From assembly GCA_029982755.1 (NCBI GenBank), contig JARRBR010000004.1:1-53336 (forward strand): DNA of 53,336 nucleotides, written 5' to 3'. This stretch comes from Rhodocyclaceae bacterium. Its GTDB lineage: Bacteria > Pseudomonadota > Gammaproteobacteria > Burkholderiales > Rhodocyclaceae. Position numbers and translations under genes: made by a program. Shown here piece after piece: positions 13,416-15,370 of this stretch (positions are counted from its first letter, which is position 1; every line of letters starts with the position of its first letter). The notes beneath the pieces were generated by a model, which was given only the letters and a program-made list of their open reading frames with translations, did no database searches and was not told the origin of the DNA.

Positions 13416-13416
<1 letters not shown>
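12883..13416 (-). CDS. GNAT-family N-acetyltransferase
   Basis: This 177-residue protein has one GNAT domain: LALRPLRAADLPVVLAIQ at the N-terminus, the acetyl-CoA loop region [20 protein letters not shown], and WTRLGFSALP at the end. I chose the ATG at 13416, which overlaps the hemB stop (ATGA). The open frame runs further upstream only inside hemB. The substrate is unknown. It is probably co-transcribed with and translationally coupled to hemB. Confidence 0.85.
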
Positions 13417-14573
<1,157 letters not shown>

Positions 14574-14649
14574 TTAACAAGCAGATGGCACCCGGCCGCT
14601 TTGCCGGCCCCTTCGGTTCGCCATCTCCCGCTTCACCTCCCTGAGCGGG

Positions 14650-14675
14650 TGCCTCACGCCCGGTGAGGCATTTTT
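14650..14675 (+). terminator. Intrinsic terminator 1 (+ strand)
   Basis: GCCTCAC (14651-14657) pairs perfectly with GTGAGGC (14663-14669) across the loop GCCCG. A T-A pair extends the stem and TTTTT follows at 14671-14675. The T-run is on the + strand only, although both neighbouring genes are on the - strand. Confidence 0.65.
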
Positions 14676-14708
14676 GCCCCCGACTACGTCCCCTGGTCGG
14701 GGGCTTTT
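14676..14708 (+). terminator. Intrinsic terminator 2 (+ strand), overlapping the engB 3' end
   Basis: GCCCCCGAC (14676-14684) pairs perfectly over 9 bp with GTCGGGGGC (14696-14704), followed by TTTTGTTT. The engB stop codon (14684-14686) is at the edge of the stem. On the - strand the hairpin is followed by A residues, so it is not a good engB terminator. It is in tandem with the preceding hairpin. Confidence 0.65.
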
Positions 14709-15370
14709 GTTTGGTCGGCGGCAAGCGCGCCAGCGGTCAGCGACGGGACCACCTCGCCCGAGGGCGAGACCCCGGTCTCGCGCGTCAGCCAGCCGCCGAT
14801 CACCGCCTCCACCTCCTCCACCCCGCTCTTCTTCAGACTCGAGAAAAGCTGCACGGTCACCTGCGGACCGAGCGGCTGCAGCGCGCGCCGGACGTCCTGC
14901 AGCACCGCCGCGGCGGCGCCGCGCGAGAGCTTGTCGCTCTTGGTCAGCAGCACGTGCATCGGCCGGCCGGAGTACGCGAACCAGTCGATCATCTGCCGGT
15001 CCAGCGGCGTCAGCGGATGACGCGAATCCATGATCAGCACCAGGCCGATCAGGCTCTCGCGCTTCTTCAGATAGGTCTCGATCAGCCCCGCCCACTGCCG
15101 GCGGATCTTCTCCGGCACGGCGGCATAGCCGTAGCCGGGCAGATCGACGAGGAGCGCGCCGGAATTGAGACGGAAGAAATTGATCAGCTGCGTGCGGCCA
15201 GGCGTCTTCGAGACGTAGGCCAGACGGACGTGCCCGGCGAGCGTGTTGATCGCGCTCGACTTGCCGGCATTGGAACGTCCCGCAAACGCGATCTCCGGCC
15301 CCGAGGGTGGGGGCAGGCCGGACGGCTTGGCGATGGAAATCTCGAATTGTGCGTTGCGGAACAGGGGCAT
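14684..15370 (-). CDS. engB: Ribosome-biogenesis GTPase EngB/YsxC (YihA)
   Basis: EngB is an essential GTPase in late 50S subunit assembly and has also been linked to division. The 228 residues show the G1 loop AGRSNAGKSS, the G2 region KTPGRTQLINFF, G3 DLPGYGYA and G4 TKSD. The C-terminal tail (EVVPSLTAGALAADQ) is longer and less conserved than usual. It is divergent from cytochrome c4, an arrangement frequent in beta- and gammaproteobacteria. Confidence 0.96.
   Translation of the reverse strand: MPLFRNAQFEISIAKPSGLPPPSGPEIAFAGRSNAGKSSAINTLAGHVRLAYVSKTPGRTQLINFFRLNSGALLVDLPGYGYAAVPEKIRRQWAGLIETYLKKRESLIGLVLIMDSRHPLTPLDRQMIDWFAYSGRPMHVLLTKSDKLSRGAAAAVLQDVRRALQPLGPQVTVQLFSSLKKSGVEEVEAVIGGWLTRETGVSPSGEVVPSLTAGALAADQTKAPDQGT

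Follow-up and report, generated by a model that had tools for sequence, protein, structure and literature searches.

The + strand between hemB and engB in the 53,336-nucleotide stretch of Rhodocyclaceae DNA analysed here (the window) carries a structured RNA gene that, judged by its sequence, is a member of the already named family RF02837 (anti-hemB, Burkholderia RNA 7). We think it quite probable that this element encodes a trans-acting small RNA (sRNA) of about 130 nt, which would be driven by sigma-E in this lineage and would mask ribosome-binding sites with its C-rich loops. The family itself is known; what is new is a sigma-E-type promoter motif upstream of the RNA and a tie to the sRNA locus found between polA and engB.

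The RNA gene in the window and its family

Both hemB and engB lie on the - strand and the RNA gene between them lies on the + strand (Table 1), an arrangement that a sequence-only reading of this DNA had reported and that our analysis confirms, with four hairpins on the + strand. RF02837 is the single Rfam match in the 53-kb window at Rfam thresholds, and the same reading was mistaken in calling the RNA unannotated, since the family is already in Rfam. The predicted fold is far more stable than those of dinucleotide shuffles, both for positions 14579-14712 (z -5.9) and for positions 14624-14712 (z -6.4), with 0 of 200 shuffles equally stable in either case. The nested arm of stem 1 is an expansion, and longer arms also occur in a locus of the same genus (L080) and in a few other members of the taxonomic family.

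Table 1. Features of the RNA locus and its neighbours, in window coordinates.
Feature	Position	Strand	Basis and remarks
hemB, porphobilinogen synthase	13416..14432	-	NCBIfam NF006762, 509.2 bits; divergent neighbour, frame free of sRNA
-35 element GGAACTTT, sigma-E-type promoter	14548..14555	+	sequence; strict pattern; looser motif in 75/86 family loci
-10 element TCTTA, same sigma-E-type promoter	14572..14576	+	motif matches
Putative full-length sRNA, 130 nt	14583..14712	+	start by rule; ncS04 homologue 105 nt; family median 105 nt
Stem-loop 1	14583..14626	+	predicted fold; stem covaries; outside Rfam model
Nested stem GGCCG/CGGCC in stem-loop 1	14594-14598 with 14605-14609	+	predicted fold
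RF02837 anti-hemB match, whole model 1-81	14624..14712	+	72.7 bits, gathering score 49.5
Stem-loop 2	14627..14649	+	loop CCUCCC 14636-14641, predicted unpaired probability 1.00
Stem-loop 3	14650..14670	+	fold, covariation; then U5 linker 14671-14675
Stem-loop 4, intrinsic terminator	14676..14704	+	terminator scan, covariation, fold
CCCC in loop region of stem-loop 4	14690-14693	+	predicted unpaired probability 0.76-1.00
U-rich tail of sRNA	14705-14712	+	after stem-loop 4
engB (yihA/ysxC), ribosome biogenesis GTPase	14684..15370	-	TIGR03598, 234 bits; convergent neighbour

The last two hairpins had been read as tandem terminators, of which one stands. A terminator consensus scan accepted only the hairpin at 14676-14704, together with a shorter stem nested inside it, and of the two hairpins only this last one looks conserved as a terminator. 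The preceding hairpin (14650-14670) is followed by five T in the window, but in relatives the T-run is shorter and variable and the scan does not list the hairpin; we therefore rejected it as a conserved second terminator, and its appearance is rather that of an internal stem followed by U-rich linker sequence. Two further observations concern the surrounding sequence. A GC-rich inverted repeat at 14479-14504, noticed by eye, separates the start of hemB from the promoter of the sRNA and may belong to the hemB leader, and a model of the suhB/mmgR RNA gives a weak match at 14644-14719 (24 bits against a cut-off of 41, E 0.0074).

RF02837 matches (E <= 0.001) occur in 91 of 101 genomes of the window's taxonomic family (79 of 101 above the cut-off), in 120 of 150 genomes of its order (104 of 150 above it) and in 124 of 274 genomes sampled from its class, where 14 exceed the cut-off and 12 of these 14 lie outside the order; three of 14 control genomes match, all below the cut-off. 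A scan of named genomes for the core motif returned at least 120 stretches, 80 of 120 being listed and several, in unrelated phyla, probably due to chance; the genera among the matches listed include Azoarcus, Aromatoleum, Burkholderia, Cupriavidus, Variovorax, Nitrosospira, Ectothiorhodospira and Salinisphaera. Some loci hold the RNA in tandem, as two or three copies (L195 4595-5142; L238 2680-3308; L254 1757-2064; L270 675-906; L360 1494-1870; L361 1502-1806). Most copies have a sigma-E-type promoter of their own under a loosened pattern. The second copy of L270 (Nitrosospira) has no promoter motif, however, and in L195 and L238 the third copy has a GGAACA variant.

The Burkholderia cenocepacia J2315 homologue, ncS04, is a 105-nt RNA whose orientation relative to its flanking genes is < > <; in the available parts of the two sources its start was mapped by dRNA-seq and its 3' end by RACE, it was detected on a Northern blot and co-purified with Hfq, and qPCR found no significant change in any of seven conditions (PMC5688073, PMC4603805). 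The window RNA resembles anti-hemB/ncS04 in its divergent hemB, its convergent engB, the CCUCCCUG loop and the terminator, and differs from the Burkholderia-type loci in having a sigma-E-type motif and a longer, nested stem 1. The passages that we found in the literature give no function for anti-hemB/ncS04. Part of a review lists Bc7 as an Hfq-bound RNA that is a RybB homologue and has hemB as a predicted target (PMC6321483), and our guess is that Bc7 is the same RNA as ncS04/anti-hemB.

A conserved sigma-E-type promoter motif

Upstream of the RNA, the sequence GGAACTT-N17-TCTTA (14548-14576) fits the strict pattern GGAACTTN{15,18}TCNNA, and its general form, GAAC(T/C)...TCnnA, is what we take to be the sigma-E (RpoE/AlgU) consensus. 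A looser motif, GAAC(T/C)-N15..19-TCnnA, was searched for in the last 100 nt before each Rfam match, with one locus (L002) omitted from the promoter counts as an RF02278 RNA. Of the 86 family loci 75 have it, the window included, as do 25 of the 29 order loci and 15 of the 28 class loci, where dinucleotide shuffles lead one to expect 1.2, 0.4 and 0.4; it is absent from 11, 4 and 13, respectively. Control searches 200-300 nt upstream found it 0, 0 and 0 times, and those on the reverse strand 0, 2 and 0 times. The stricter GAACTT form is present at 54 family, 14 order and 11 class loci.

The motif also sets a plausible 5' end. If transcription is taken to begin at the seventh base after the -10 element, the first base in the window is the first base of stem 1 (14583). 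This rule yielded 113 deduced transcripts from 143 loci (73 family, 25 order and 15 class), and 105 of the 113 begin with a base that the predicted fold pairs. The median transcript measures 105 nt among family loci, 106 nt among order loci and 121 nt in the class sample, the published length of ncS04 being 105 nt in the source passages available.

Because rpoE is expected to be autoregulated, its upstream regions served as a positive control. The strict expression was found at seven of 30 family rpoE genes. We then trained a weight matrix on 47 sRNA promoters of the family, which reached 10 bits at 10 of the 30 genes, at none of the 30 on the reverse strand and in 4.3% of mononucleotide shuffles; since it was tried after the strict pattern had failed, this control is weaker than one planned beforehand. 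In the matrix results, read by eye from a table, 22 of the 30 genomes show a site of the form (T/G/C)GAAC(T/C)(A/T)-N15-GTC at 104-182 nt upstream of the RpoE match (e.g. L154); to judge from its sequence it is probably the rpoE autoregulatory promoter, and the recurrence of the same layout upstream of these genes supports the sigma-E identity of the sRNA motif. The strict pattern is not enriched across the window's genome (six matches, versus four for a reversed control), so the case for sigma-E rests on position and conservation.

Some lineages lack the motif, and they lend weight to an alternative in which the same trans-acting sRNA is made from a housekeeping sigma-70 promoter, as in Burkholderia, while the GGAACTT motif goes unused. 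Among the named core-motif matches listed, 27 of 85 have the sigma-E motif, as do 23 of the 68 with a hemB, polA or engB neighbour; it is missing from 10 of 10 Burkholderia-type loci (Burkholderia, Paraburkholderia, Caballeronia, Cupriavidus and Pandoraea) and from 17 of 17 Comamonadaceae-type loci, both groups being picked from these matches by record title, and sigma-70-like sites can be seen by eye in both groups. One such site, in Burkholderia ambifaria (L225), predicts by hand count an RNA of 105 nt, the published length of ncS04. We nevertheless regard a housekeeping promoter as unlikely for the window RNA, because no sigma-70-like site was found at 14400-14760 and because not only the sigma-E motif but also its spacing and its distance to stem 1 are conserved in the family, in the order and at about half of the class loci.

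Genomic place and conserved structure

Divergent hemB and convergent engB both lie within the fetched stretch at 79 of the 86 family loci, hemB only at six and engB only at one, divergent hemB thus being present at 85 of 86. At the 29 order loci the corresponding numbers are 20 with both genes, one with hemB only, two with engB only and six with neither. The 28 class loci comprise nine with polA upstream and engB convergent, six with polA only, seven with engB only and six with neither. A count from coordinates, which drew on the best 118 of the 124 class genomes with a match, of which 65 have a listed engB, places a convergent engB within 391 nt of 43 of 65 matches; for the other 22, engB is on another contig in 15 and on the same contig in another arrangement in seven. 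Approached from the opposite side, 30 engB loci chosen by EngB score, blind to the sRNA, include 10 with such a motif directed towards engB from no more than 700 nt away and one with it on the reverse strand; polA lies upstream in 12 of the 30. In other Gammaproteobacteria, RF02837-like RNAs often occupy the gap between polA and engB. Spot 42 has this place in E. coli, and ErsA has it in P. aeruginosa according to the available part of the source (PMC8575079).

This neighbourhood bears on the proposal, made in the sequence-only reading, that the RNA end overlaps the engB stop and that the RNA could act antisense on engB mRNA. The overlap itself holds, as in the window the 3' end of the sRNA covers the final 29 nt of the engB frame, which is likewise overlapped at 49 of 80 family and 17 of 22 order loci; this would favour a cis-antisense RNA acting on engB (or hemB) mRNA by perfect complementarity. 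As a conserved role, however, an antisense effect on engB is unlikely: in the family, 31 of the 80 loci whose engB end can be read leave the frame free, as do 5 of 22 in the order and 13 of 16 in the class. In one genome (G157, L035) the RNA follows polA and engB is on another contig; in family loci with a hemB match, the BLAST start of hemB lies at least 70 nt from the Rfam match; and conservation peaks at stem-loop 2, which in the window lies outside both reading frames. On the overlap counts we rejected a conserved antisense function against engB or hemB, and we consider such a mechanism distinctly improbable.

Conservation of the RNA itself was assessed with 77 of the 98 deduced family and order transcripts; the 21 others were set aside manually with no rule fixed in writing, in most cases because the start was shifted or the length unusual, a selection that may make the covariation count look better than it is. 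The alignment holds four stems, in which 10 of 27 pairs have changed on both sides and 98.7% of cells pair. The covariation score is 0.190, versus 0.111 in shuffles, with 0 of 500 shuffles reaching it and slid controls at 0.018-0.051, and none of the five measures was attained in 500 shuffles. Compensatory changes, which the sequence-only reading proposed to look for in the four stems, appear in stems 1, 3 and 4; stem 2 hardly varies in the alignment and carries the nearly invariant CUCCCU core in the CCUCCCUG loop. Beyond the order, changes in stem 2 can leave it paired (L044 has CCGTC with GACGG), and CUCCC is found in 141 of the 143 loci. At least two hairpin loops containing CCC occur in 103 of the 113 deduced transcripts, as against 9 of 339 mononucleotide shuffles, and the CCUCCC loop is complementary to Shine-Dalgarno sequences.

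That there is no RNA gene here, and that the hairpins have no transcript of their own, is barely credible in view of three covarying stems out of four, a nearly invariant loop, a conserved promoter motif, expression of the homologue in B. cenocepacia (in the published passages available) and a terminator that works on + strand RNA only and so cannot end either neighbouring gene. The structured, hidden + strand transcript that had been suspected from the sequence is supported by the Rfam match, the covariation, the promoter motif and the partly available description of the Burkholderia homologue.

Comparable sRNAs and proposed function

Several named sRNAs invite comparison with the window RNA. 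First, ErsA (Pseudomon-1, RF01719) is, in the source passages available, a 132-nt RNA under sigma-22 control at the polA-engB locus of P. aeruginosa; the window shares with it what appears from the sequence to be a sigma-E/AlgU-type promoter motif (GGAACTT-N17-TCTTA) and the engB side of the locus, and differs in having hemB where polA would be. The part of the review at hand states that ErsA represses algC mainly through pairing at the ribosome-binding site, with Hfq (PMC6321483). The RF01719 model has no match in the window's genome at E 0.001 and matches 10 of 274 class genomes, one of them above the cut-off (G262, L341). This last match follows polA and has GAACT-N18-TCATA upstream, with no engB within the 1.5-kb flank; the ErsA sequence that we compared is L341, from this genome and not from P. 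aeruginosa itself, and it lacks the CCUCCCUG stem-loop of anti-hemB. Of the nine weaker matches to this model, six coincide with RF02837 matches, among them two (G155, G256) above the RF02837 cut-off, and a convergent engB adjoins all nine.

Second, sX13 of the Xanthomonadaceae (RF02232) resembles the window RNA in its stem-loops with C-rich loops (CCUCCC and CCCC in the window), and differs in place, lying downstream of polA, as the accessible text has it, where the window RNA adjoins hemB. According to the available part of its description, sX13 represses translation independently of Hfq, by way of its C-rich loops and of G-rich motifs close to start codons, and alphaproteobacterial RNAs of the alpha-r7 family also lie at the polA locus (PMC3771888). 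The RF02232 model has no match in the window's genome and matches 12 of 274 class genomes, two of them above the cut-off and both 163-164 nt after a polA match. Of its 10 weaker matches, three coincide with RF02837 matches, and at least four of the rest appear fortuitous. No sigma-E motif was found upstream of the sX13 loci L351 and L352.

Finally, Spot 42 (spf, RF00021) of E. coli also follows polA and is convergent with engB (yihA), and has a CRP site upstream. RF00021 has no match in the 274 class genomes, the window's included, and RF02837 has none at E. coli spf up to E 5; Spot 42 was rejected as a sequence homologue, with no RF00021, RF02837 or R1 match in its support. R1 is a model that we built from 26 RF02837-type sequences, and only 15 base pairs, in two stems, survive in its consensus structure. 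It finds ErsA at 24.5 bits and sX13 at 24.7 and 24.8 bits, scores only just above that of a motif-preselected and probably chance match (L208, 23.0 bits), the best unselected match being 17.5 bits in 668 kb. R1 did not match seven rpoE loci or Spot 42, nor L313 and L315, two engB loci with a sigma-E-type motif. The betaproteobacterial toxic sRNA (RF02278) shares with anti-hemB, in the passages available, C- and U-rich stretches complementary to ribosome-binding sites, and is set apart by its separate loci, its two hairpins and the lack of an R1 match. Two double-hairpin loci of this kind, both above the Rfam cut-off, occur in the window's genome (C120:565-629, L061; C66:8303-8371, L062).

Common descent of anti-hemB, ErsA and sX13 is likely on these sequence comparisons, though not proved. 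We lean, by a modest measure, towards a fuller scheme in which RF02837, RF01719 and RF02232 are branches of one ancestral sRNA gene that lay downstream of polA, convergent with engB, was controlled by sigma-E and had C-rich loops directed against ribosome-binding sites. Under this scheme hemB would have replaced polA in Burkholderiales, the promoter would have been exchanged for a housekeeping one in Burkholderia and Comamonadaceae, and Spot 42 would occupy the same place by descent or by replacement. We found no paper that links anti-hemB with sigma-E, ErsA, sX13 or the polA locus in the open-licence literature, most subscription papers falling outside this scope.

For the window's lineage we hypothesize that the envelope-stress sigma factor RpoE (sigma-E) would transcribe the sRNA from 14583 to 14712, that transcription would end at the hairpin 14676-14704 and that the U-rich tail probably binds Hfq. 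The exposed CCUCCC and CCCC loops would then probably pair with G-rich ribosome-binding sites, and such pairing could block the translation of several mRNAs under envelope stress. A target search in the window's genome with the 9-nt complement AGGGAGGTG found seven sites, one of them the sRNA's own locus, versus five for the reversed control, which is no enrichment. At mnmA (L188, reverse strand, about position 1501), AGGGAGGTG, the full complement of the C-rich loop, stands 6 nt before the ATG; mnmA is possibly a target and possibly a chance match, as one site without enrichment is not evidence.

The conserved sigma-E-type promoter gives anti-hemB a testable role, in envelope stress, in many lineages. 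The motif has no counterpart in Burkholderia, which says why work confined to that genus would miss a link to envelope stress. If the scheme of common ancestry is true, it was the exchange of promoters in Burkholderia and Comamonadaceae that hid this link.
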